Below are positions 8,019 to 22,227 of a DNA stretch of 64,000 nucleotides, one piece after another. Positions within the stretch are counted from its first letter, which is position 1, and each line of letters opens with the position of its first letter. The DNA is taken from positions 1,736,001 to 1,800,000 of the forward strand of contig NZ_JACIBU010000001.1 of assembly GCF_014195485.1 (NCBI RefSeq). Reading direction: 5' to 3'. Origin of the DNA: Modestobacter versicolor. GTDB taxonomy: Bacteria; Actinomycetota; Actinomycetes; Mycobacteriales; Geodermatophilaceae. A program made the translations under genes and the position numbers. A model generated the notes under the pieces. The model saw only the letters and a list, made by a program, of their open reading frames with translations, was not told the origin of the DNA and made no database searches.

Positions 8019-8109
8019 GGTACAGCGCTCCTCTGGAAGGGGGACGGACGGTGGGCGCGACGCTGTCCGCGTCGCAGCACCCCACGAGTCTAGAGACGTC
8101 GTCGGACTG

Positions 8110-8183
8110 TCGGGGTGGCGGGATTTGAACCCACGGCCCCCCGCTCCCAAAGCGGGTGCGCTACCAAGCTGCGCCACACCCCG
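8110..8183 (-). tRNA. tRNA-Pro (UGG)
   Basis: Full cloverleaf on the minus strand: acceptor CGGGGTG pairs with CACCCCG (7 bp), anticodon stem CCCGC/GCGGG encloses the loop TTTGGGA with anticodon TGG, and the T loop is GTTCAAATC. Discriminator A; CCA is not encoded. It lies just upstream of tig on the same strand and may be co-transcribed with it. Confidence 0.95.
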
Positions 8184-8247
8184 TGGCGGCCTGAGTCTAG
8201 GCACGTCGGCGCCCGGTACCCTGTGCAGGCACCTCAGCGGTGCGCTC

Positions 8248-8321
8248 GCGGGTGTAGCTCAATGGTAGAGCCCCAGCCTTCCAAGCTGGCCATGCCGGTT
8301 CGATCCCGGTCACCCGCTCCA
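8248..8321 (+). tRNA. tRNA-Gly (UCC), 3' CCA encoded
   Basis: Acceptor GCGGGTG pairs with CACCCGC, anticodon stem CCAGC/GCTGG encloses CTTCCAA with anticodon TCC, and the T loop is TTCGATC. The mature 3' end is at 8318 and CCA is encoded at 8319-8321. The 3' half is repeated, degenerate, at 14941-14992, so this gene looks like the attachment site of an integrated element. As I recall, mycobacteriophage L5 uses the tRNA-Gly next to tig in mycobacteria. Confidence 0.95.
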
Positions 8322-8322
8322 C
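8271..8322 (+). repeat. Left attachment-site repeat (tRNA-Gly 3' half)
   Basis: These 52 bases, from the anticodon arm to just past CCA, match 14941-14992 in 47 positions, including an identical 27-base core (8285-8311 and 14955-14981). Confidence 0.8.
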
Positions 8323-8856
8323 ACATCGGTGTCGCCGGACACCCGTGAACGGTGTCCTGCGACGTCCTTCTCACGGCCGCCCGTCATCAGATCGGTGGTA
8401 TCGCCACGGACGCGTCGGGCTTCGAGCTTCGTCCCGACGGTGCCCGACCTCGGACAACGCCGGGAGCGGGCGCTCCGGCCGCCCGTGGTGTGGAGCGGCA
8501 GGACCTGACCGCAGCAGCCCCCCGCGGAGGGTTTGCGGCTCGTCCAGGAGTCGTTCCGGGGACTCCGGGTCCGGGCGACGTCGGGGGCGGTGGGACCTGG
8601 TCAGGTTCCACCGGCACAACCCCTCTGGTGGCCGGACGCGTCACAGCACCTCTGGGCACCGCGCTGCTCGCGACTCTTCGCCGCTGACCCGCCGCACTTC
8701 CGGGTGGCGAGGGAAACGCTCGGGGGCCCTGTCGCACCCCGGGACCACCGGGGACCTGCCTCGGGTCACCGACCACTCATAACGTCGACCTGGCTCGCGT
8801 GAGCCACCGCGAAAGACCACCACAGTCCCGTGGGGACAGCAGAGATGGGGACAGCC
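8322..8856. other. Non-coding stretch right of tRNA-Gly
   Basis: About 530 bases in which I find no convincing gene on either strand; open frames here look like GC-driven shadows. A small hairpin (GGTGTC-GCC-GGACACC) lies directly after the tRNA. A TAACGT hexamer near 8781 could be the -10 box of the SnoaL gene. The stretch may hold decayed island sequence. Confidence 0.5.
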
Positions 8857-9252
8857 ATGGCCGACTTCGACATCCACGCCTTCTACACCGACTACATCGC
8901 AGCCCTCAACGACCGCCGGTTCGAGGACATGGACGAGTTCGTCGCCGACGAGGTGACCCTGAACGGCCAGCGCGGCACCCGTAGTGCCGTCGTCGCGGAT
9001 CAGCGGGGCATCGTCGACGCCGTTCCGGACTTCCACTGGGAGGTGCAGGAGATCCTCGTCGACGGCGACCGGGCCGGGGTGCGCCTGGTCAACACCGGCA
9101 CGCCGGTCAAGGAGTGGCACGGCGCGCCCGCGAGCGGCGCGTCCTTCCGGATCGTCGAGATGGCGATCTACCGCATCGAGAACGGCCGGTTCGTCGACAT
9201 GACCTTCATCCACGACACCGCGGACGCCGACCGCCAGCTCCGCGCAGCCTGA
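8857..9252 (+). CDS. SnoaL-like / ester-cyclase family protein
   Basis: A 131-residue NTF2-fold protein of the SnoaL polyketide cyclase-like or 'ester cyclase' family: YTDYIAALNDRRFEDMDEFV at the N terminus, then DFHWEVQEILVDGDRAGVRL and FVDMTFIHDTADADRQL at the end. Family members are small cyclases, isomerases or ligand binders, and the substrate cannot be told. I chose ATG 8857, preceded by GGGGA. An in-frame ATG at 8845 and GTG at 8830 exist, and the ten-base TGGGGACAGC is duplicated there (8831-8840 and 8846-8855), giving two tandem SD-like sites. First gene of the putative island, followed by a strong hairpin. Confidence 0.8.
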   Translation: MADFDIHAFYTDYIAALNDRRFEDMDEFVADEVTLNGQRGTRSAVVADQRGIVDAVPDFHWEVQEILVDGDRAGVRLVNTGTPVKEWHGAPASGASFRIVEMAIYRIENGRFVDMTFIHDTADADRQLRAA

Positions 9253-9288
9253 CCTCTCGAGGCACTGCCTCGCGGTCTGCCGCCAGGT

Positions 9289-9325
9289 CCGGGATCCCGC
9301 GCAGCGTCGCTGCGCGGGATCCCGG
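9289..9325. terminator. Near-perfect 37-base palindrome, terminator-like
   Basis: Two 18-base arms are exact inverted repeats around a single central base, 36 bases after the SnoaL stop. It would form a very stable hairpin and likely ends that transcript. Confidence 0.7.
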
Positions 9326-9439
9326 CTGCTGGGGCGGTCGGTGGCGCGTCCGCCGTCCGAGGGGCCTCAGCCGTCGACAGGACCGGACGACGACGGGGCA
9401 CGACGTCCGAGACCTGCGTTCCACGAGAGGATCAGTGAG

Positions 9440-10594
9440 ATGGCGAGCAGCGACGCGATGGAAGGCACTCCCGAGCAGGGGCGACCGTCCGCGCCGACGG
9501 GCGACCCGAGCCGGCGTCGTCCGATCGGCGTGGGCGTCGTCGGGCTGAGCGCGTCGGGAGGCTGGGGCGCCGCGGCACACCTCCCGGCGATGTCAGCGGT
9601 CGGCGGATTCGAGCTGCGGGGATTGGTGGCGAGCTCGTCCGAGTCGGCCCGGGCAGCGAGTGACGTCCACGGCGCGCCCGCGTACGGATCCACCGAGGAG
9701 CTCGCCCGAGCCGACGGCATCGACCTCGTCGTCGTCACGGTCAAGACGCCTCGGCACCGGGAGCTCGTGCTGCCCGCGCTGGCGGCCGGGAAGCCGGTGT
9801 TCTGCGAGTGGCCTCTGGCCGTCGACCTCGGCGAGGCGGAGGAGATGGCCCACGCCGCGCTGGGGATCTCGACCTTCGTGGGGCTGCAGGGCCGGTCCTC
9901 GCCCACGTTCCGCTGGCTGGCCGACCTCGTGGCCGACGGTCACCTGGGGGACGTGCTCTCGGTGACCGTCTCCGCGGCGACGTCGGAGTGGGGCACGCCG
10001 GTCGACCCCGGCAAGCTCTACACCCTCGACCGCGACCTCGGGGCGACCATGATGTCCATCGCCCTCGGTCACGCCATCGACTCCGTGTCGATGGTGGTCG
10101 GGGAGCTCCAGGACGTCGTGGCGACGACCGCGACCCGGCACCCGAACGTCGCGCTGGCTCGCAGCGGGCAGCACGTCCCGATGACCGCGGAGGACCAGAT
10201 CGCCATCTCCGGCAACCTGCCGGGGGGTGCCGTGCTCTCCGCGCACCAGCGGGGCGGCGTCGTCTCCGGGGTCGGGTTCTCGATGACCATCGACGGTTCG
10301 GAGGGAACACTCCAGGTCACTGCACCAGACCACCCGCACATCGCACCGGTCACCGTGCACGCCGCGCGGAGTGGTGGTCGGCGCGTGGAGCTGACCGTTC
10401 CCGACGGCTACGACCGGTTCCCCCGGCTCGCCCGATCGCCCATCCACACGCTGACCCACGCGTACGCGGGCATCCGTGACCAGCTCCTCGGCGGCCGCGC
10501 CGGCGTCCCCGACTTCCGCGACGCCGTCATCCGTCACCGGCTCATGGACGCGATCAGGCGATCAGCCGCGACCGGGCGGCGCGTTCAGCCCTGA
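9440..10594 (+). CDS. Gfo/Idh/MocA family NAD(P)-dependent oxidoreductase
   Basis: A 384-residue member of the glucose-fructose oxidoreductase / inositol dehydrogenase family. The Rossmann dinucleotide site is GVGVVGLSASGGWGAAAHLP near residues 29-48. The conserved loop with catalytic Lys is usually EKP; here it reads CEWPL (near 135-139), as in galactose-6-oxidoreductase (Gal80)-like members, so dehydrogenase activity on a sugar is uncertain. The Gal80-like pattern FVGLQGRSSP follows. ATG 9440 is preceded by AGAGG nine bases upstream; the frame is open further 5' but without similarity. No sugar transport or catabolic genes adjoin it in the island. Confidence 0.85.
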   Translation: MASSDAMEGTPEQGRPSAPTGDPSRRRPIGVGVVGLSASGGWGAAAHLPAMSAVGGFELRGLVASSSESARAASDVHGAPAYGSTEELARADGIDLVVVTVKTPRHRELVLPALAAGKPVFCEWPLAVDLGEAEEMAHAALGISTFVGLQGRSSPTFRWLADLVADGHLGDVLSVTVSAATSEWGTPVDPGKLYTLDRDLGATMMSIALGHAIDSVSMVVGELQDVVATTATRHPNVALARSGQHVPMTAEDQIAISGNLPGGAVLSAHQRGGVVSGVGFSMTIDGSEGTLQVTAPDHPHIAPVTVHAARSGGRRVELTVPDGYDRFPRLARSPIHTLTHAYAGIRDQLLGGRAGVPDFRDAVIRHRLMDAIRRSAATGRRVQP

Positions 10595-10626
10595 CTGATC
10601 TGCTGCCCTCCCGCGTGCCGCTGACG

Positions 10627-10815
10627 TCACACCCACGTGAGCTCGGCCCGCGCGGCGGGCTCGTCCGGGTGGGGCGTCGTCCACGCCTCCCCCACGCACC
10701 CAGGGCACCGAGGACGCCGGGCAGTGCCGCTCCCGGCTCGGTCAGGACGTACTCCGACCGCGGAGGGCGGTGGCTGTACCGACGCCCAGTGAAGACGCCG
10801 CTCTCGGGCCGAACC
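10627..10815 (-). pseudogene. Relic of an HxlR-family transcription regulator (C-terminal half)
   Basis: Read on the minus strand from about 10805, one frame gives ESGVFTGRRYSHRPPRSEYV followed by LTEPG and LGALGAWG. This is the wing and C-terminal helix of HxlR winged-helix regulators (typically ..RRYSxRPPRxEYxLTxxG..). An in-frame stop lies just upstream and the first ~60 residues, the recognition helices, are absent. The tail PHPDEPAARAELTWV before a stop at 10627 lies in another frame, indicating a frameshift. The missing part would fall where terC ends (10866), so the gene was truncated at that junction. Confidence 0.6.
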
Positions 10816-10865
10816 TGACGTCAAGGGTGGCCACCGAACCTCCCGACGACGGCGGACGCGTGGTC

Positions 10866-11888
10866 CTATCCGGTCGGAAAGCGCTCACCGTCCGGGCCGT
10901 GGCCCGCCAGGCGCGCGCCGGCACGGTTCCGGCGGTCCTTGACGAGGCTGGCCACGGTGGTCACGAGCAGCGTGAGCAGGATGACCGCGAGCGAGATGCT
11001 GGTGGGTACCTCCGGGATCACGGTGACGTGCTCGCCGCCGTTGACGAAGGGCAGCTCGTTGGCGTGCAGCGCGTGGATCAGCAGCCTGGCCCCGATGAAG
11101 CCGAGGATCGCCGCCAGCCCGTAGTGCAGGTAGACCAGCCGGTCGAGCAGGCCGTCGACGAGGAAGTACAGCTGGCGCAGTCCCAGCAGCGAGAACGCGT
11201 TCGCGGCGAACACGAGGAACGTCTCCTGGGTGAGCCCGAAGATCGCCGGTATCGAGTCCACGGCGAACAGGAGGTCGGCGCTGCCTATGGCGACCAGCGC
11301 GACGGCCAGCGGGGTGACCAGGTGCCTGCCGTCGACCCCGACCATCAGCCTGTCGCCGTGGTAGTCGTCGGTGGTCGGTAGGAACCGGCGGACGAACCGC
11401 AGGACTCCGTTCTCGGTGTACTCGTCCTGCCCCTGGTGTCCACCCCGCGCCTGCGCGACAGCCGTCCAGACGAGGAAGGCACCGAACAGGTAGAACACCC
11501 AGCTGAACTGCTCGATCGCGGCGGCGCCGACGAAGATGAAGACGGTCCGCAGCGCGAGCGCGAACACGATGCCGTAGAGCAGCACCTTCTGCTGCAGCGC
11601 CCGGGGCACCGCGAAGCCGGACATGATCAGCACGAAGACGAAGAGGTTGTCGACCGACAAGCTCTTCTCGGTGATGTAGCCGGCGAAGTACTCCCCGCCG
11701 TACCTGCCTCCGTAGAGGGCCCACACCAGCACCCCGAAGGCGACGCCGACGCTGACGTAGGCGATCGACCAGATCGCTGACTCGCGAAGGCGCGGCTCGT
11801 GCGGACGGCGATGGCCCAGCAGGTCGAACCCGATCATCGCGACCACGGCGCCGACCGTGACGGCCCACGCCCAGAAGGGGACATCCAT
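10866..11888 (-). CDS. TerC/Alx family integral membrane protein
   Basis: A 340-residue polytopic membrane protein of the TerC/Alx family, related to manganese exporters (Alx, MeeF/MeeY) and to tellurite-resistance TerC. It shows the two hallmark acidic motifs, SVDNLFVFVLIMSGFAVP near residue 78 and FAVDSIPAIFGLTQETFLVF near 206, and eight or nine hydrophobic helices. The ATG at 11888 has GGAGGTGG seven bases upstream. I looked for the yybP-ykoY manganese riboswitch often found before such genes and do not see it in the short leader. It lies downstream of, but separated by a hairpin from, the SDR pair. Confidence 0.88.
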   Translation of the reverse strand: MDVPFWAWAVTVGAVVAMIGFDLLGHRRPHEPRLRESAIWSIAYVSVGVAFGVLVWALYGGRYGGEYFAGYITEKSLSVDNLFVFVLIMSGFAVPRALQQKVLLYGIVFALALRTVFIFVGAAAIEQFSWVFYLFGAFLVWTAVAQARGGHQGQDEYTENGVLRFVRRFLPTTDDYHGDRLMVGVDGRHLVTPLAVALVAIGSADLLFAVDSIPAIFGLTQETFLVFAANAFSLLGLRQLYFLVDGLLDRLVYLHYGLAAILGFIGARLLIHALHANELPFVNGGEHVTVIPEVPTSISLAVILLTLLVTTVASLVKDRRNRAGARLAGHGPDGERFPTG

Positions 11889-12037
11889 GCGACTACCACC
11901 TCCAGTGACTGGCGTGCATCAGTTGCCCGTCGCCGGGACGGTCTCGTGCCGACCTCCGGCTGAGAGCGCGAGGACCTTCCCGGCGGGATCGTCCGGAGCA
12001 CCGGGCCCCGGGCGCCACGGCCCGCCATGCACGACGA

Positions 12038-12075
12038 CGGCGCGGCTCGGGCACCGTGCGGCTCGAGCCGCGCCG
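12038..12075. terminator. Hairpin after the SDR pair
   Basis: A 12-bp perfect stem (CGGCGCGGCTCG and its complement) with a 14-base loop lies 21 bases after the SDR stop at 12096, ahead of terC. Confidence 0.65.
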
Positions 12076-12095
12076 CCCCGTCCGATCCCGGGGGA

Positions 12096-12989
12096 TCAGT
12101 GCGCCGTTGGGCGGAGGGTGTCCTCCAGGCGCATCCGGCGGAGGAGCCGTTCCCGCTGCACCGTGGCCACCGCGGTGACCGGCACGTCCCCGAAGTCGGA
12201 GAAGTCGACGCTGGAGCGGTAGGGGCGCGACCCGGCCGGGAGGCCGACGACCCGCGCGATCTCGTCGGCGACCGCCTGGACGTCCTGCTGGACGCCCGGG
12301 GCGAACAGCGACTCGGTGGCGGCCTCGTTGCCGGCCAGGGCGGCGCCGTACTCGGCGTCGTAGGCGGAGGCCACCTCCGTGTCCGCCGGGAACCCGGCGT
12401 CGGGGAAGTGCGCCGTGCCCTGGGTGAACGGGCCCGGCATGACGATGGACGTCTCGATCCCGAACCGTGCCACCTCGATGGCGACGGAGTCGGCGAAGGA
12501 GTCCATCGCGGCCTTGGCCGCGGTGTAGGGGGCGAGGAACGGCGGAACGACCCTGCTCGTCCCGCTGCCCACCCACAGCAGCAGCCCCGACCGCTGCCGG
12601 CGCATGACCGGCAGGGCCGCGCGGTTGACCCGCAGCGCCCCCACGGTGTTGGTGTCGTACGCGGCGAGGACCTGTTCAGGGGTGAAGGCCTCCGTGATGC
12701 CGAACAGGAGGTGCGCGGCGTTGTGGACGACCACGTCCAGGCGACCTTGCTCGGCCTGGATGCGCTCGACCGCCGCGCGGGCCGAGGGCTCGCTGAGCAC
12801 GTCGAGCTCCACCACGCGCAGGTCCAGGTTCTCCTGGGCGGCGAAGGTGAGCAGGTCCCCGGCCCTGTCCTCGTTGCGACTCTCGGGGTCGCGCATGGTG
12901 GCATAGACCGTGTGGCCGTCCGCGGCCACGGTTCGGGCCGCAAGACGGCCGATGCCGGTGCCTGCGCCGGTGATCAGGACGACGGACAT
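12096..12989 (-). CDS. Short-chain dehydrogenase/reductase (island SDR 1)
   Basis: A 297-residue classical SDR: nucleotide-binding TGAGTGIG at residues 7-14, NAA at 90-92, and the catalytic pair Y155/K159 in YTAAKAA with a serine near 142-145. The C-terminal region is longer than in FabG-type enzymes and resembles SDRs acting on bulky hydroxy- or keto-compounds; the substrate is unknown. The ATG at 12989 follows GAGAGGAAA. It is second in a two-gene operon after the SDR at 13034, 44 bases apart. A TetR regulator divergent from that gene probably controls both. Confidence 0.87.
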   Translation of the reverse strand: MSVVLITGAGTGIGRLAARTVAADGHTVYATMRDPESRNEDRAGDLLTFAAQENLDLRVVELDVLSEPSARAAVERIQAEQGRLDVVVHNAAHLLFGITEAFTPEQVLAAYDTNTVGALRVNRAALPVMRRQRSGLLLWVGSGTSRVVPPFLAPYTAAKAAMDSFADSVAIEVARFGIETSIVMPGPFTQGTAHFPDAGFPADTEVASAYDAEYGAALAGNEAATESLFAPGVQQDVQAVADEIARVVGLPAGSRPYRSSVDFSDFGDVPVTAVATVQRERLLRRMRLEDTLRPTAH

Positions 12990-13033
12990 GGTGACGTTTC
13001 CTCTCGTGCAGCGTGACGTTGGCGAGGGTCGGG

Positions 13034-13807
13034 TCAGGCCATGCCGCCGTTGACGTAGATCGTCTGACCGTTGATCCAGCGGGCGGCGCCGGCGAGGGCC
13101 GAGACCACCTCGGCGATGTCCTCGGGCGTGCCCAGCCGCTGCATGGGGTTCATGCCGGCCATCCGCTCGATGGTCGTCTCGTCCTTGTCGGACAGGAACA
13201 GTGCGGTGGCGGTGGGCCCGGGCGCCACGGCGTTGACGGTGACGTCGCGGCCACGCAGCTCCTTGGCGAGCACGCCGCTGACCGCGTCGACGGCGCCCTT
13301 GGTCGCCGCGTAAGGCCCGTAGCCGGGCAGGCCGAGCTTCACCACCGAGGTGGAGAAGTTGATGATCGCGCCACCGTCGCGGACCCGGCGCGCGGCCTGC
13401 TGAGCCACGACGAACGTGCCGCGGACGTTGGTGCGGTGCATGGCGTCGAGCACGTCGAGGTCGAAGTCGGCGATCGGCCCCAGGTGCATGACGCCCGCGG
13501 AGTTCACCACGACGTCGACACCGCCGAACTCGGCCTCGGCACGGTCGAAGACGGCGGCCACCGCCTCGGCATCGGCGACGTCGGCCTGCGCGGCGAAGGC
13601 GCGGGCACCGTGCTGCTCGGCAGCCGAGACGGCCTCCTTCGCCGCACCCTCGTCACCGGCGTAGACGATCACGACGTCCTGACCGTCCGCGGCGAGCCGC
13701 TCGACGACGGCCCGGCCGATGCCGCGCGACCCACCGGTCACGACGGCCACCCGCCGCCGACCGCCACCGGCCGAGGGCGTGCCGTCGGTGTTGTCAGTGA
13801 TGGACAT
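13034..13807 (-). CDS. FabG-like short-chain dehydrogenase (island SDR 2)
   Basis: A 257-residue SDR with TGGSRGIG at residues 24-31, NSAG at 102-105, and Y166/K170 in YAATKGA with serines at 152/154. Its end, GQTIYVNGGMA, is typical of FabG-like 3-oxoacyl or xenobiotic reductases. The ATG at 13807 has GGAGGT seven bases upstream. It is the first gene of the operon and divergent from the TetR gene at 13911, across a 103-base relatively AT-rich gap holding inverted repeats, the usual layout of a TetR-repressed detoxification operon. Confidence 0.9.
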   Translation of the reverse strand: MSITDNTDGTPSAGGGRRRVAVVTGGSRGIGRAVVERLAADGQDVVIVYAGDEGAAKEAVSAAEQHGARAFAAQADVADAEAVAAVFDRAEAEFGGVDVVVNSAGVMHLGPIADFDLDVLDAMHRTNVRGTFVVAQQAARRVRDGGAIINFSTSVVKLGLPGYGPYAATKGAVDAVSGVLAKELRGRDVTVNAVAPGPTATALFLSDKDETTIERMAGMNPMQRLGTPEDIAEVVSALAGAARWINGQTIYVNGGMA

Positions 13808-13836
13808 GATTGCTACCTCCGATGTCGTTCAGATGT

Positions 13837-13856
13837 TGGCGATGACTACATTGCCA
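13837..13856. promoter_or_regulatory. Candidate operator in the SDR-tetR divergent region
   Basis: TGGCGATG-ACTA-CATTGCCA is an inverted repeat with 7 of 8 arm positions matching. A related half site, TGGCGCATTG, follows within 20 bases. It lies between the divergent SDR and TetR genes, where an autoregulated TetR protein would bind. Confidence 0.4.
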
Positions 13857-13910
13857 CGGGTGGCGCATTGTTGCAAGCGTTGACACCAGAGAACTGTTAT
13901 CTTCGATCTC

Positions 13911-14669
13911 ATGAGCGAGGAGATGGCCGCCACGCGTGGGGGCAGAGCGCACCGCGACACCATCGAGCGGGCGGCCCTGGAGCTGCTGGAGGCCGGCGGG
14001 CCGAGCGCGGTGACCACACGCGCCGTCGCTGCGGCCGCCGAGGTCCAGTCGGTGACCATCTACCGGGCCTACGGCGACATGGAGAGGCTGCTCGACGCCG
14101 CAGTGCAACGAGGCTTCCGCCAGTACATCGAGCTCAAGACCGGTCGCGCGCGCGTCGGCGATCCGGTCGACGACCTGCGTGAGGGCTGGGACCTGCACGT
14201 CGGCTTCGGGCTCGAGCACCCCCACCTCTACGCCCTGATGTACGGCCGGCCCAACGTCAGCCCTCCGGGTGCAGCCGCCGTCCAGGCCGACACGGTCCTG
14301 CTGGGACTGGTCCAGGCCGTCGCCCGTGCCGGCCGACTCCGCACTGACGTGGCCTCCGCTGCACGGGCCGTGCACGCGGCGGGATGCGGCGTGACGCTCT
14401 CGCTGATCGGAGTTCCGGTGGACGAGCGGGACCCGCAGCTCTCCCATCGGGTGCGGGAAGCCGTCCTCGGCTCGCTGACCACCGATGTCTGCACCGGGTC
14501 GGGCGAGGTCACCGACGCACCCGCAGGGAGTGTCCACGCCGTCGCGCTCGCCGCGACGCTGCGCGACGGGGACCCTTCGCCGCTCACCGAGGCGGAGACG
14601 AACCTGCTGGTCGAGTGGCTGGACAGGCTGGCGCGCGGGCCCGGAACGGGCCTCGTTGCGCCGTCATAG
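13911..14669 (+). CDS. TetR/AcrR family transcriptional regulator (island)
   Basis: A 252-residue regulator. The N-terminal HTH (about residues 15-60) reads TIERAALELLEAGGPSAVTT, then RAVAAAAEVQSVTIYRAYGD, the canonical TetR pattern with the Y of helix 3. The C-terminal ligand domain is unassigned. The ATG at 13911 has no SD, but TATCTT lies seven bases upstream, so the mRNA may be leaderless. Divergent from the two-SDR operon, which it probably represses. It is the last gene before the right attachment-site copy. Confidence 0.88.
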   Translation: MSEEMAATRGGRAHRDTIERAALELLEAGGPSAVTTRAVAAAAEVQSVTIYRAYGDMERLLDAAVQRGFRQYIELKTGRARVGDPVDDLREGWDLHVGFGLEHPHLYALMYGRPNVSPPGAAAVQADTVLLGLVQAVARAGRLRTDVASAARAVHAAGCGVTLSLIGVPVDERDPQLSHRVREAVLGSLTTDVCTGSGEVTDAPAGSVHAVALAATLRDGDPSPLTEAETNLLVEWLDRLARGPGTGLVAPS

Positions 14670-15019
14670 GCACGACTCTCGGCGGCGCCCGCAGAAGCGC
14701 CCAGGTCGTGCCCCGTATCAGCTCTGACTGAGATGGGCGAGTACCGACTGCGGCGAGGGCAGCCACACGTCCGCCCGCCCAGGCGAGGCCGCAGCTCCAT
14801 ACGCGAACAGCAGAGAGCAATGGGCAGCGGACCGGGCAACGCCGAGGAACTGCCTTCCCTGCCGCCCTGTGAGCTCAAGGCACGTGGGAGGCACGGCACC
14901 CGCCTGGCTTCGCGTTGACCAGCGATGATGCGCTTGGAGCCTGCAGCCTTCCGCGCTGGCCATGCCGGTTCGATCCCGGTCCCCCGCTCCACGCACGCCC
15001 GGCCTTCGGACGCCGGCCC
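14670..15019. other. Gap at the right end of the island
   Basis: 350 bases between the TetR gene and the epoxide hydrolase. Apart from the tRNA-Gly 3'-half copy (14941-14992) I see no gene or promoter. A minus-strand open frame crossing it is an artefact of reading through the tRNA copy. Confidence 0.6.
14941..14992 (+). repeat. Right attachment-site copy: degenerate tRNA-Gly 3' half
   Basis: It aligns without gaps to the 3' half of tRNA-Gly (8271-8322) with five mismatches and keeps the anticodon TCC, the T arm and the CCA end, but there is no 5' half or D arm. It is therefore not a tRNA gene. Same strand as the intact tRNA, marking the right boundary of the inserted segment. Confidence 0.8.
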
Positions 15020-16192
15020 TCAGCGGACCGGGCGGAAGAACGCGCGGATGTCCTCCACGACGACGTCCGGCACCTCCAGCGAGGCGAAGTGGCCCCCGCG
15101 GTCGAACTCGCTCCAGTGCACGATGTGGTCGTTGTCCCGGTCGGCGAAGGCGCGGATGGACCGGAAGTCGTCCTGGAACACCGCGACGCCCATCCGGCCG
15201 TGGTTGACCTGCGGCTCCCGCACGGCCCGGCCCTCCTCGAAGTGGTAGCGACCCGCGCTCGCCGAGGTGTTGGTGAGCCACTCGAGCGACACCGACCCGA
15301 CGATCTTCTCCAGCGGTACGAGGCTCGTGCCGTTGCCGAAGTTGACGAACAGCTCGTTCCAGGCGAGCTGGCCGATCGGCGAGTCGGAGATGCCGACCGC
15401 CACGGTCTGCGGGCGGGACGCGTTGATCGCGTTGTAGCCGCCCACCGACTGGAACCAGCTCATGTGCTCCAGCGCCGCGTGGTCCCGCGGCGTCAGCGCC
15501 TCGAACTCCGCGGGGTCGCCCGAGGGGAAGGAGAACGCCTGGAGCACGTGCGACCCGAGGTACCCGGCCGGCTGGAGGAGACCCAGCTCCCGGCCGACGA
15601 GCGCCCCGGCGTCGCTGCCGTGAGCCCCGTAGCTGTCGTACCCCAGGCGGCGCATGAGGGTGTCGAACGTGCGCGCGACGCGCTGCATCGTCCACCCGCG
15701 GTCGACCAGCGGCGTGCTGAAGCCGAAGCCGGGGATCGACGGCACGACGACGGAGAAGGCGTCCTCGGCCCGTCCACCGTGTGCGACGGGATCGACCAGC
15801 GGGTCGATCACGTCCAGGAAGTCGGTGACGTTGCCGGGATAGGTGTGCACGAGCAGCAGCGGTACCGCGGCCTCGTGCGCCGACCGAACGTGCAGGAAGT
15901 GGACGGGCTGGCCGTCGATGTCGGTGGTGGCCTGCGGGTACGCGTTCAGCTGCGCCTCGAGCGCCCGCCAGTCGAAGGTCCGCCACGCCTCCAGGGCCTC
16001 GGTGAGCCAGGAGTTGGGCGTGCCGTACGTCCAGTCGTCGCCGGGCGCCGGCTGCGGGAGCCGGGTGCGGGCGAGCCGCTCGCGCAGGTCGTCCAGGTCG
16101 GCCTGCGGCACCTCGATCCGGAAGGGCCGGATCTCGTCGGGGCTGCCGGAGGACGGGGTCGGGTGCGGGCCGGAGGAGGAGGTCGTGGTCAT
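15020..16192 (-). CDS. Epoxide hydrolase (EHN domain, alpha/beta-hydrolase)
   Basis: 390 residues. The N-terminal EHN domain (PFRIEVPQADLDDLRERLAR, about residues 21-40, continuing to GTPNSWL) is followed by the alpha/beta-hydrolase core with HTYPGN as the oxyanion region. The nucleophile elbow HGSDAG carries the aspartate expected of epoxide hydrolases, though the usual Trp after it (SDWG) is Ala here. The C-terminal HFASLEVPDVVVEDIRAFF supplies the catalytic His. It hydrolyses an unidentified epoxide to a diol in the cytoplasm. ATG 16192 is only 60 bases from the divergent WYL regulator, which likely controls it. Confidence 0.87.
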   Translation of the reverse strand: MTTTSSSGPHPTPSSGSPDEIRPFRIEVPQADLDDLRERLARTRLPQPAPGDDWTYGTPNSWLTEALEAWRTFDWRALEAQLNAYPQATTDIDGQPVHFLHVRSAHEAAVPLLLVHTYPGNVTDFLDVIDPLVDPVAHGGRAEDAFSVVVPSIPGFGFSTPLVDRGWTMQRVARTFDTLMRRLGYDSYGAHGSDAGALVGRELGLLQPAGYLGSHVLQAFSFPSGDPAEFEALTPRDHAALEHMSWFQSVGGYNAINASRPQTVAVGISDSPIGQLAWNELFVNFGNGTSLVPLEKIVGSVSLEWLTNTSASAGRYHFEEGRAVREPQVNHGRMGVAVFQDDFRSIRAFADRDNDHIVHWSEFDRGGHFASLEVPDVVVEDIRAFFRPVR

Positions 16193-16252
16193 GGCCCGCA
16201 CGCTAGGGAGCAAAGAGGCACAGACCTTTCCTGTTCTGCCAGGCTGCGTTCG

Positions 16253-17218
16253 ATGACCACGTCGGCCCGGCTGCTCGCCCTCCTGGGGCTGCTGCAGGCC
16301 CGCGCGAGCTGGACCGGTCCGGAGCTCGCGGCGCGGCTGGACGTCACCGTCCGCACCGTGCGCAACGACGTCGACCGGCTGCGCGAGCTCGGGTACCCGG
16401 TGACGGCGGTGCGCGGCGCAGCCGGGCACTACCGGCTGGGGCCGGGCGCCTCGCTGCCACCGCTGCTGCTCGACGACGAGGAGGCCGTCGCCCTCGCGGT
16501 CGGGCTCCGGTCCGCCTCGGGGGTGGCCGGCACCGCGGAGTCCAGTGCCCGCGCTCTGGCCAAGCTCGAGCAGGTGCTGCCCTCCCGGCTCCGCTCCCGC
16601 GTCGACGCGATCGCGCGCACGGTCGACCGCGGCCCGGACAACACCGGGAGCAACGCCCCCGACCCGGAGGTCGACCCGGCCGTGCTCGCCCAGGTGGCCC
16701 AGGCCATCGCCCGCGTGGAGTGGCTGCGGTTCGACCACCACCACCAGCCGCACCTGGTGGAGCCCTACCGCCTCGTGTCGTGGCAGCGGCGCTGGTACCT
16801 GGTGGCCCGCGACGTCGCCACCAGGGAGTGGGGCACGTTCCGCCTGGACTGGCTGACCCTCCGGACGCCGACCGGGCGCCGCTTCGAGCCCGAGCCGCTG
16901 GCGGAGGCCGACTACGACGCCTTCGTCCTGCGCGAGGTCGCGTCCAGCGGGTGGGCGGTGCACGCGCGGATCACGGTGGCCGCGCCGGCACCCGAGGTGC
17001 TGGGCCGGATCAACCCCGCGGTCGGCGTGGTGGAGCCGGTCGACGACCACACGTGCGTCCTGGTCACCGGCGCCGACAGCGTGGAGACCATCGCCGCCTA
17101 CATCGGGATGCTCGGCCTGGACTTCCGGCTCACCGGCCCGCCGGACCTGGTCGAGGCGCTCCGCGTGATGAGCCGCCGCTACGCCGCCGCCGTCGACCAC
17201 CCCGACGCGGGGACCTGA
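16253..17218 (+). CDS. DeoR-type HTH, WYL-domain transcriptional regulator
   Basis: A 321-residue YafY/WYL-family regulator: N-terminal HTH_11 (LLALLGLLQARASWTGPELA and TVRTVRNDVDRLRELGYPV), then a WYL domain around residues 150-215 (EPYRLVSWQRRWYLVARD) and a WCX C-terminal domain. WYL proteins sense nucleic-acid or small ligands. This one is divergent from the epoxide hydrolase with a 60-base shared gap, so that gene is its most likely target. I chose ATG 16253 because the protein then begins MTTSARLLALLGLLQ; the longer open frame upstream runs through the hydrolase. Confidence 0.9.
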   Translation: MTTSARLLALLGLLQARASWTGPELAARLDVTVRTVRNDVDRLRELGYPVTAVRGAAGHYRLGPGASLPPLLLDDEEAVALAVGLRSASGVAGTAESSARALAKLEQVLPSRLRSRVDAIARTVDRGPDNTGSNAPDPEVDPAVLAQVAQAIARVEWLRFDHHHQPHLVEPYRLVSWQRRWYLVARDVATREWGTFRLDWLTLRTPTGRRFEPEPLAEADYDAFVLREVASSGWAVHARITVAAPAPEVLGRINPAVGVVEPVDDHTCVLVTGADSVETIAAYIGMLGLDFRLTGPPDLVEALRVMSRRYAAAVDHPDAGT

Positions 17219-17237
17219 GAGCACCAGGTGAGGTCGC

Positions 17238-18215
17238 TCAGCGGCGGCCGAGCGCCGCCAGCTCCTGCACCAGCCAGTCCGCGACCCGGCCGTTCCACTC
17301 CGCGTGCTCGGCGCCGGCGGTCCCCCGCGGCACCGTCTCGACCACCATCAGCAACGCCAGGTGCACCCGGTACAGGTGCAGCCGGGCGCGGATGGCCTCG
17401 TCGAGCACGACCGGTCCCCCGGCCTCGGCGTAGCCGCCCAGGAAGTCGGCGTCGTCGGCGATGTCACCCAGCAGCGCCAGGGAGACGAGGTCCGCGGCCG
17501 GGTCGGCCCACAGCGCCCGCTCGTGGTCGATGAACCCGGTGACCGCCGGCTCGGGCCCGGCCAGGTCGACGAAGACGTTGCCGTCCCACAGGTCGAAGTG
17601 CACCAGCACCGGCGTGGTGACGGCGGGCAGCAGCTCGGCGGCCGCGGCACCCACCCGCCGCCGCAGGTCCTCGGCCGGCACCGGCAAGGGCGCCGCGTAG
17701 CGCTCGGCGTCGGCGAGCAGCGCGTCGATGATCCGCCGGTACGCCCCGGCCCAGGTGGTCGCCGCCAGCGGCCCCGCGGGGTAGCCGAACCGCCCGTCGC
17801 CGGTGACGGCGTGCATCGCCGCGACGTGCCGTCCGACCTGCCGCCGCAGCACCCGGTGCTGGTCCGGGCCGACGGCGGCGGACTGCGACTGCCACGACGC
17901 CCCGGGCAGCAGCGAGGTCAGCACGTACCCGCGCCCGGCCGCCGTCCCCGCCGCGACGAGCTCGGGCACCGGCACCCGCCCGGCGAACCGCCGCAGGCAC
18001 ATCGCCTCGGTGGCCAGCAGGTCGCGCTCGTAGCTGAGCACCGGGGTGCCCGGCGGCGGGGCGACCTTGAGCACCAGCTCCCGCCCGTCGGCGAGGGTCA
18101 GCGCGTACGCCGCGTTGCACGTGCCCTCGGTCAGCTCACGGACGGCGTCGAGCCGCACCCCCACGGCCTCGGCGACGACCCCGTCGAGCTCGGCGCGGGA
18201 GAGCGGCTCCTTCAC
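17238..18215 (-). CDS. Phosphotransferase family protein (APH fold)
   Basis: A 325-residue aminoglycoside-phosphotransferase-fold kinase: a nucleotide loop with Lys in LVLKVAPPPGTP, the catalytic Brenner motif LVHFDLWDGNVFVD and the metal-binding GFIDHERALWADPAADL. Such proteins phosphorylate antibiotics, choline-like molecules or sugars; the substrate is not predictable here. Last gene of a minus-strand operon (VOC, DHFR-like, DUF2255, this gene). Its start overlaps the DUF2255 stop by ATGA. Confidence 0.87.
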   Translation of the reverse strand: MKEPLSRAELDGVVAEAVGVRLDAVRELTEGTCNAAYALTLADGRELVLKVAPPPGTPVLSYERDLLATEAMCLRRFAGRVPVPELVAAGTAAGRGYVLTSLLPGASWQSQSAAVGPDQHRVLRRQVGRHVAAMHAVTGDGRFGYPAGPLAATTWAGAYRRIIDALLADAERYAAPLPVPAEDLRRRVGAAAAELLPAVTTPVLVHFDLWDGNVFVDLAGPEPAVTGFIDHERALWADPAADLVSLALLGDIADDADFLGGYAEAGGPVVLDEAIRARLHLYRVHLALLMVVETVPRGTAGAEHAEWNGRVADWLVQELAALGRR

Positions 18216-21212: not shown

Positions 21213-21219
21213 GCGCCGG

Positions 21220-22227
21220 TCAGGCGGGGGTGGGGTGCCGGGGCAGGCCGAAGAGGTCGAACAGCCGGGTGTCCAGGAAGGCGGTCATCCGGGTGACCCG
21301 CCCGTCGGTGAACTGCAGCGCGTGGACGGCCCACGGCTCGAACTCACCGTTCGGACCGCTGGGCCGCCACTGCGCGAACGCCGGGTTGCCGTTGAGCTCC
21401 AGCGGGACCACGTGCGAGCCGCGGCACTCCGCCCCCGGCCCGACGAACCAGGTGGCGATGTCGGCGGAGCTGCGCAGCCACATGGCGTAGGGCGGCATGT
21501 CCATCACGGCGTCCTCGTGCAGCAGGGCGACCAGCGCGTCGATGTCGTAGCGGGCGAACGCGTCGAGGTAGCGGTCGAGCAGGGCGGCGTGGTCGTCGGC
21601 CACCGTGGGCGCCGCCGGCTCCTCCGCCGCCTGCTGCACGGCGAGGGTGGCCCGGGCCCGCTGCAGCGCGCTGTTCACCGCCGCCACCGAGGTCTCCAGC
21701 AGCACCGCGACCTCGTCGGCCTTCCAGCGCAGCACGTCGCGCAGGATCAGCACCGCCCGCTGCCGCGGCGGCAGGAACTGCAGGGCCGCGACGAAGGCCA
21801 GCCGCACCGACTCCTTCTGCACCGCCAGGTCGGCCGGGTCGCCGCCGACCGGGAGCACCTGCCGGTCGAGGGCCGGCTCGACCCAGGCGCCGTCGGGCAG
21901 CACGCCGTCCAGGGACGCCTCGACCGGGGCGAAGGAGTCCTCGGAGAGGTCGACCGGCAGCGCCCGGCGCTTGCGGCCGTCGAGGGAGTCCAGGCAGACG
22001 TTGGTGGCGATCCGGTACAGCCACGACCGCAGCGCGCCGCTGCCCTGCAACCGGTCCAGCGAGCGCCAGGCCCGGACCATCGTCTCCTGGACGGCGTCCT
22101 CGGCGTCGAAGGCGGACCCGAGCATCCGGTAGCAGTAGCCGGTGAGCTCGCGCCGGTGCTCGGCCAGCCGCGGTTCGAGCTCGCTGGCGGTGGTCGTGCC
22201 GGGCCGTTCGGCGATCAGACCGGTCAT
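21220..22227 (-). CDS. ECF sigma factor with C-terminal SnoaL-like domain
   Basis: 335 residues, SigG/SigJ-like. Region 2 includes RMLGSAFDAEDAVQETMVRA followed by WRSL, region 4 is FLPPRQRAVLILRDVLRWKA and DEVAVLLETS, and a SnoaL_2 NTF2-fold domain covers roughly residues 205-330. In such ECF groups the SnoaL tail modulates activity in place of a separate anti-sigma factor, and no anti-sigma gene is adjacent here. ATG 22227 has AAGGAG six bases upstream. Confidence 0.9.
   Translation of the reverse strand: MTGLIAERPGTTTASELEPRLAEHRRELTGYCYRMLGSAFDAEDAVQETMVRAWRSLDRLQGSGALRSWLYRIATNVCLDSLDGRKRRALPVDLSEDSFAPVEASLDGVLPDGAWVEPALDRQVLPVGGDPADLAVQKESVRLAFVAALQFLPPRQRAVLILRDVLRWKADEVAVLLETSVAAVNSALQRARATLAVQQAAEEPAAPTVADDHAALLDRYLDAFARYDIDALVALLHEDAVMDMPPYAMWLRSSADIATWFVGPGAECRGSHVVPLELNGNPAFAQWRPSGPNGEFEPWAVHALQFTDGRVTRMTAFLDTRLFDLFGLPRHPTPA

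Follow-up and report, generated by a model that had tools for sequence, protein, structure and literature searches.

The window analyzed here, a 64,000-nucleotide stretch of the Modestobacter versicolor genome (contig NZ_JACIBU010000001.1; positions below are those of the window), contains a block of metabolic, membrane and regulatory genes lying between an intact tRNA-Gly(UCC) gene and a partial copy of that gene (contig C1, 1.744–1.751 Mb), which an earlier note on this DNA had read as an integrase-less genomic island (Table 1). The upstream neighbor of the tRNA-Gly gene is a tRNA-Pro gene at 8109–8183, both called by ARAGORN. Comparison by eye of 8271–8322 with 14941–14992 gave 47 identical positions of 52, with a 27-base identical run, and the likeness of the far copy to tRNA-Gly begins at the anticodon region; the same-strand 3′-half copy described in the earlier note is thus confirmed. 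A BLAST search with 8200–8400 over both contigs of the genome (4.59 Mb in total) matched the far copy at E 6e-15 and, apart from it and the query itself, gave one match, a tRNA-sized one at C1:3575551–3575622 (81%). The far copy is not due to chance and is the sole such partial copy seen. A block flanked by an intact tRNA gene and, on the far side, by a displaced fragment of its 3′ part has the layout of tRNA-associated genomic islands.

Table 1. Features of the tRNA-Gly locus (att, attachment site; L and R, left and right)
Feature	Positions	Strand	Evidence or remark
tRNA-Gly(UCC), intact; 3′ half = left attachment core (attL)	8248–8321	+	ARAGORN; relatives also have it next to tRNA-Pro/tig
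Hairpin immediately right of the tRNA	8328–8367	+	RNA fold −25.3 kcal/mol, z −3.5; occupies the place where nine relatives have the right-hand arm repeat
SnoaL-like protein, cargo	8857–9252	+	Pfam PF07366, E 8e-22 on 8869–9249
Gfo/Idh/MocA-type oxidoreductase, cargo	9440–10594	+	Pfam PF01408, PF22685
Possible HxlR-like relic	10680–10780	-	Reverse frame only; family name is a candidate
TerC-family membrane protein, cargo	10866–11888	-	Pfam PF03741; tree
Short-chain dehydrogenase (SDR), cargo	12096–12989	-	Pfam PF00106
Short-chain dehydrogenase (SDR), cargo	13034–13807	-	Pfam PF13561
TetR-type regulator, cargo	13911–14669	+	Pfam PF00440
Direct repeat AGGCACG-N4-AGGCACG (AGGCACG-TGGG-AGGCACGG; AGGCACGTGGGAGGCACGG), putative integrase arm sites	14878–14896	+	Sole such pair in the window
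TTGACCAGC motif, putative second arm or accessory site	14915–14923	+	Alignment of far copies
attR core = 3′-half copy of tRNA-Gly, 5 mismatches	14941–14992	+	Direct reading and BLAST
Epoxide hydrolase (15020–16192, -) and WYL regulator (16253–17218, +)	14993–17234		Outside the att-bounded island; also absent from relatives' slots

Left of the far copy lies a direct repeat, AGGCACG-N3–5-AGGCACG, of which 0.006 pairs would be expected per 64 kb under a first-order model and which occurs once in the window, ending 45 bases left of the copy. The same layout is found left of 10 far copies in seven other genomes (G008, G004, G002 with four, G022, G070, G054, and G044), although it deviates slightly in G070, G054, G044, and one G002 copy. 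Three other genera of Geodermatophilaceae thus have far copies with the arm region of the window. A profile (R1) covering the arm region plus the first part of the core, built from 11 sequences including the window, matched 97 places in 50 of the 108 family genomes, spread over 9 of the 12 genera; 86 of these lie outside the training sequences, and about 80 reach E 1e-6 or better, the remaining 17 being weaker. In the M. versicolor genome the single R1 match falls at the far copy (E 1.8e-16), and a tRNA-Gly core stood at the expected distance in all 30 R1 matches taken as loci, one per genome with the best genomes first. To judge by their conservation, the arm repeats may represent integrase binding sites. 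The earlier note had offered as a challenge to its own proposal that the copy at 14941 might be a decayed tandem tRNA-Gly gene from an ordinary duplication, and the copy is indeed same-strand, tRNA-derived and altered at three positions in the 3′ part of the tRNA. However, its likeness starts only at the anticodon region, ARAGORN called no tRNA around 14941–14992, and the bases to its left resemble the arm regions of far copies in other genera rather than the 5′ half of a tRNA; the far copy is thus an attR, and a simple duplication is very improbable. Exact matches to the arm pattern in one-per-species genomes amounted to 20 stretches, of which 13 are titled with Geodermatophilaceae genera, one with Bacillus sp. 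(an unverified record) and six with names from elsewhere; given about seven chance matches estimated for 18 fixed bases in 257 Gb, we make no claim for the pattern beyond the family. Three R1 matches lie far from tRNA-Gly(UCC), at G054 C1:1497761 and 1522645 and at G070 C1:2671531, and perhaps mark a second landing site.

The slot to the right of the tRNA-Gly gene was compared in 39 loci, 19 from the genus Modestobacter (g1) and 20 from other genera, and in none of them did window DNA 8400–14870 find a match. The same genes and the same tRNA copy in all relatives would have spoken against integration, but the stretch 8326–17234 is whole in no other of the 112 family genomes searched. Pieces of it were matched separately, namely the oxidoreductase in G010, G018, and G020, TerC in nearly all genomes, the SDR stretch in G034, G106, and G068 (68–71%), and the pair of epoxide hydrolase and regulator in G052 (74%), and a protein search of the slots with the island, epoxide hydrolase and WYL proteins yielded just distant SDR matches (26–40% identity). 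Five slots are empty: in four other-genus loci (G098, G101, G103, and G105) the gene at 21229–21242 starts 25–51 bases after the tRNA, and in one genus locus (G019) window position 21216 follows the tRNA after 80 bases. Other cargo with an integrase occupies the slot in G036 and in G099, where a core copy stands directly before the conserved next gene. The earlier note had anticipated both kinds of locus; its more specific expectation, an empty site joining tRNA-Gly to the epoxide hydrolase, was seen in no relative examined, as the tRNA is joined directly to 17235 in G010 and to about 21216–21242 in the five empty slots. By this comparison, all the DNA between 8322 and about 21215 was gained later; the right boundary of the island itself is not base-exact. 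The next conserved gene was taken at first to be rpiB, an assignment that was dropped, the translation of 21220–22200 reading as a sigma factor.

Because the genus varies over the whole region between the tRNA and about 21216, and 14993–17234 is likewise missing from the slots of relatives, the block might have arrived by homologous recombination between the flanks of this variable region, with the att copy carried along from a donor. We consider this improbable: both ends of the block coincide with att features, and such a transfer would still require site-specific integration in the donor. The segment 14993–17234 itself, at whose right end no att remnant was seen by eye, is either a further gain here or a loss in G010, and the phosphotransferase-like gene beyond it (17238–18215) is in the same place in G010 alone (70%).

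The integrase that tRNA islands usually, if not universally, carry is missing. The five Phage_integrase matches of the genome (C1 at 1.09, 1.61, 1.64, and 2.02 Mb; C2 at 0.16 Mb) all fall outside the slot, and tblastn of two integrases found at this site in relatives against 8322–17234 revealed no remnant (best E 0.19), which bears out the absence of an integrase between tRNA-Gly and the far copy noted earlier. Relatives of the integrase at the G036 locus (L114, 5331–6464) with at least 63% identity occur in 16 of the 108 family genomes, the next match being 51% identical, and the M. versicolor genome has no match to it at E 1e-40 or better. Each of these 16 genomes also has arm matches, which 50 genomes show in all (Fisher p 1e-6, nominal because the genomes are related); arm matches are also present in 34 of the 92 genomes that have no integrase at this level.

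Integrase-less islands are common at this site. In five genomes, picked for having several matches so that the counts are not rates, 16 islands lie between consecutive core copies (five in G031, four in G054, three each in G111 and G002, and one in G051), and none of them holds an integrase like either of the two seed integrases; in each of G031, G054, and G111, one bounding copy failed the lax arm test. A Phage_integrase scan covering these islands in G031, G054, G111, and G051, but not in G002, gave no match in G054, G111, and G051 and, in one G031 island, a 400-aa protein with four equal-scoring places in the genome, which we take to be of insertion-sequence type. For G002, three weak integrase matches exist beyond the matches listed. 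The tandem-island cargo scanned is mostly metabolic or related to transport, including aldehyde dehydrogenases, parts of ABC transporters, a LuxC-type reductase and mannitol dehydrogenase, alongside PIN-type and SUKH-type proteins and one FtsK match below the cut-off in G002. Many islands, some of them arranged in rows, share their end signals with the window island. At G031 C1:1301000–1467240 (L161–L166), read up to 1420400, six or more att-bounded units follow one another behind tRNA-Gly and are accompanied by one matching integrase, and in G002 (C84 15000–50000; L060, L061) four core copies stand in a row, three with an alternative version of the tRNA 3′ half and two with a hairpin by the lax test (a third looks alike), with no matching integrase in the 35 kb read.

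With integrase-less islands common here and no integrase remnant in the window, the island was most likely moved in trans, by the integrase of another element using the same site. The competing scenario, in which an integrase once resided in cis near attR and was deleted after integration, is less probable but deserves real weight. Directly before the far copy, G001 and G021 have an integrase whose att type is related but not the same; in G004 and G031 an arm-profile match is overlapped by the matching integrase gene, and at the corresponding place the window has about 270 bases with no called gene; the decayed attR and the attL lacking a right-hand arm repeat can be counted on the same side. 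Against deletion in cis stand the clean tblastn result and the 16 islands in five genomes without this integrase type, which make the integrase-less state the usual one at this site.

Phage sequences offer a parallel to the proposed integration. The phage matches listed for the integrase of the family include mycobacteriophage tyrosine integrases, that of TarsusIV among them, and a 49-base stretch 88–90% identical to the 3′ half of the window tRNA is present in TarsusIV, Serenity, TipsytheTRex, and Jsquared, mycobacteriophages that we take to be L5-like. In TarsusIV the 49 bases (89.8% identical) lie between the tyrosine integrase gene and the next gene. The suggestion that tRNA-Gly serves here as an L5-type hot spot gains support from these phage cores, and in particular from the TarsusIV core beside its integrase, with L5 itself not among the matches listed; in viral contigs, neither the 38-base core (exact) nor the arm pattern found a match. 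For Gordonia phages, tRNA-Gly-TCC is listed as an attB, which phage Whitney uses with a 51-bp core, and mycobacteriophage cores are described as commonly overlapping the anticodon loop (PMC10865867). The similarity to the integration of L5-like mycobacteriophages and this Gordonia phage lies in the tRNA-Gly site and, for the mycobacteriophages, in the 49-base core stretch, whereas the window island has no phage gene and the integrase of the family is 31–34% identical to the listed mycobacteriophage integrases. Elsewhere in the M. versicolor genome, a Phage_integrase match with one in-frame TAG (C1:2018552–2019079) lies near a tRNA-like match at 2019216.

Taken together, 8322–14992 is very likely a 6.7-kb island that entered the 3′ half of tRNA-Gly(UCC) through the action of a tyrosine integrase akin to the enzymes of L5-like mycobacteriophages and probably supplied from elsewhere. 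The tyrosine-recombinase integration proposed in the earlier note is supported by the arm region, the empty slots, the other cargo with an integrase in the same place and the absence of the whole island from the other 111 family genomes searched. In the mechanism we envisage, the integrase would bind the arm sites and exchange strands near the anticodon-loop sequence. The tRNA gene would thereby acquire the 3′ half brought in by the element (attL, 8248–8321), and the original 3′ half of the host would be pushed to the far end, with the left-hand arm sites of the element in front of it (attR, 14878–14992). The attR bases left of the exchange point would then derive from the element, as their likeness to other elements suggests, and those to the right from the displaced host 3′ half. 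The three changes in this displaced half fit a loss of selection, and two of them, just 3′ of the anticodon and in or near the likely exchange region, would be expected to hinder excision. Since attR is decayed, the island is probably fixed and no longer mobile.

SnoaL, the oxidoreductase, TerC, TetR, and the two SDRs named in the earlier note were all confirmed by Pfam, whereas the possible HxlR relic is visible only as a reverse frame, and the scan found no integration or transfer family, nor phage structural or replication genes of the kind expected of an L5-like prophage, among the six proteins. The guanine-plus-cytosine content of 8322–14940 is 0.713, against a mean of 0.750 (standard deviation 0.011, minimum 0.728) in same-sized windows of 21216–64000; of the two compositional signals proposed earlier, this one is present, whereas a deviation in codon use is confined to the oxidoreductase (z −1.8) and TetR (z −2.1), the remainder being near normal. 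In a phylogenetic tree the island TerC clusters with ten proteins of genus g4 (support 97/89), and the genome's own core TerC clusters with proteins of G010, G009, and G001 (100/99); the tree includes seven other Modestobacter genomes, of which these are three.

Several points weigh against this interpretation. Codon usage of the island is mostly normal, and the island TerC sits on a long branch, which leaves its exact placement unsure. The arm pattern with three mismatches occurs somewhere in 17 of 100 shuffled windows, the real match having one mismatch and standing at the expected place; conservation alone marks the arm sites, and the window is itself among the 11 profile training sequences. 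No exact empty site corresponds to a right boundary at 14992, the G010 junction lying farther to the right. Finally, attL has no right-hand arm repeat, so that the island may be an incomplete substrate.

This last feature sets the window apart from several relatives. In 883 kb of the loci compared, AGGCACG-N3–5-AGGCACG occurs 21 times. Eleven of these repeats stand left of a far copy or in other places, and the remaining ten are on the right of a tRNA-Gly; nine of the latter lie 117–119 bases right of the tRNA in the same orientation (L042, L043, L046, L050, L114, L116, L118, L121, and L122), and one (L044) lies about 200 bases away and is inverted. The right-hand repeat does not mark integrase carriers only: of its genomes, just G036, G004, and G022 have an integrase with at least 63% identity. 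In its place the window carries a hairpin, and similar hairpins are found right of att cores in G002, G111, G051, G042, and G031. A lax hairpin pattern, searched in 1.1 Mb of the loci compared, identified 20 hairpins (40 counts, every hairpin being seen on both strands), 13 beside an att core and 7 elsewhere, with no match in the four empty loci of genus g9. A hairpin stands right of the core in 4 of 30 R1 loci and at the left end in 8 of the 16 islands of the tandem set, and exact hairpins occur at five places in the 108 genomes, two of them at tRNA-Gly att sites identified here. With 7 of 20 away from cores and 4 of 30 R1 loci, the hairpin is neither confined to tRNA-Gly att sites nor general at them.

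Among known systems, the island is best classed with the CIME-like tRNA islands, with the difference that one arm repeat is missing from its attL. Cis-mobilizable elements (CIMEs) are described as cargo between attL and attR that has lost the genes for integration and transfer, and as accreting in tandem (PMC5704250). The window island resembles them in its att-bounded cargo, with no integration or transfer family among the six proteins scanned, and the site resembles theirs in its tandem islands. Both cores are present and the left arms are kept at attR, but attL carries a hairpin and lacks the right-hand arm repeat, and movement by a partner element is putative here. Islands at ssrA in Dehalococcoides are reported to lie in tandem, bounded by 3′-end repeats with a conserved upstream motif, 15 of 31 having no integration module (PMC3146451). 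Tandem islands behind an RNA gene, 3′-end repeats and a motif just upstream recur in our family, which differs in using a tyrosine integrase and tRNA-Gly, in contrast to the serine recombinase at ssrA.

In this family of desert and soil actinobacteria, a tRNA-Gly gene acts as a common landing place for islands that have no integrase and are largely metabolic, and we found no report of such islands in Geodermatophilaceae in the titles and abstract beginnings of the papers searched; a paper on Modestobacter deserti (PMC8602919) mentions the term genomic island once. The conserved end signals allow islands to be detected without an integrase gene, and island finders that require one would miss them. 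Under supply in trans, gene capture by many islands would be served by one phage-type integrase. A further proposal, which we put forward as a speculative and rather unlikely one, is that the window island is a unit of a system found throughout the family. Its units would be one-armed and hairpin-capped, ordered core-hairpin-cargo-arms-core and free of an integrase, and a single integrase would gather them into rows at tRNA-Gly. The tRNA-Gly gene would then work like a cassette-collecting site, with the integrase provided by one resident or visiting element, and the hairpin, replacing the right-hand arm region, might end transcription of the tRNA or alter the use of the site by the integrase, for example by making capture easier than loss.

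Two further observations concern the locus in relatives. The integrase-bearing element at the tRNA-Gly site of G036 (L114, 8544–15435) contains an apparent nitrate-reductase-like cluster with a Molybdopterin oxidoreductase match. In G001, G003, G004, and G009 (L041, L054, L042, and L055), tRNA-Pro and tRNA-Gly are separated by about 1.5 kb, versus 64 bases in the window, with something in between.

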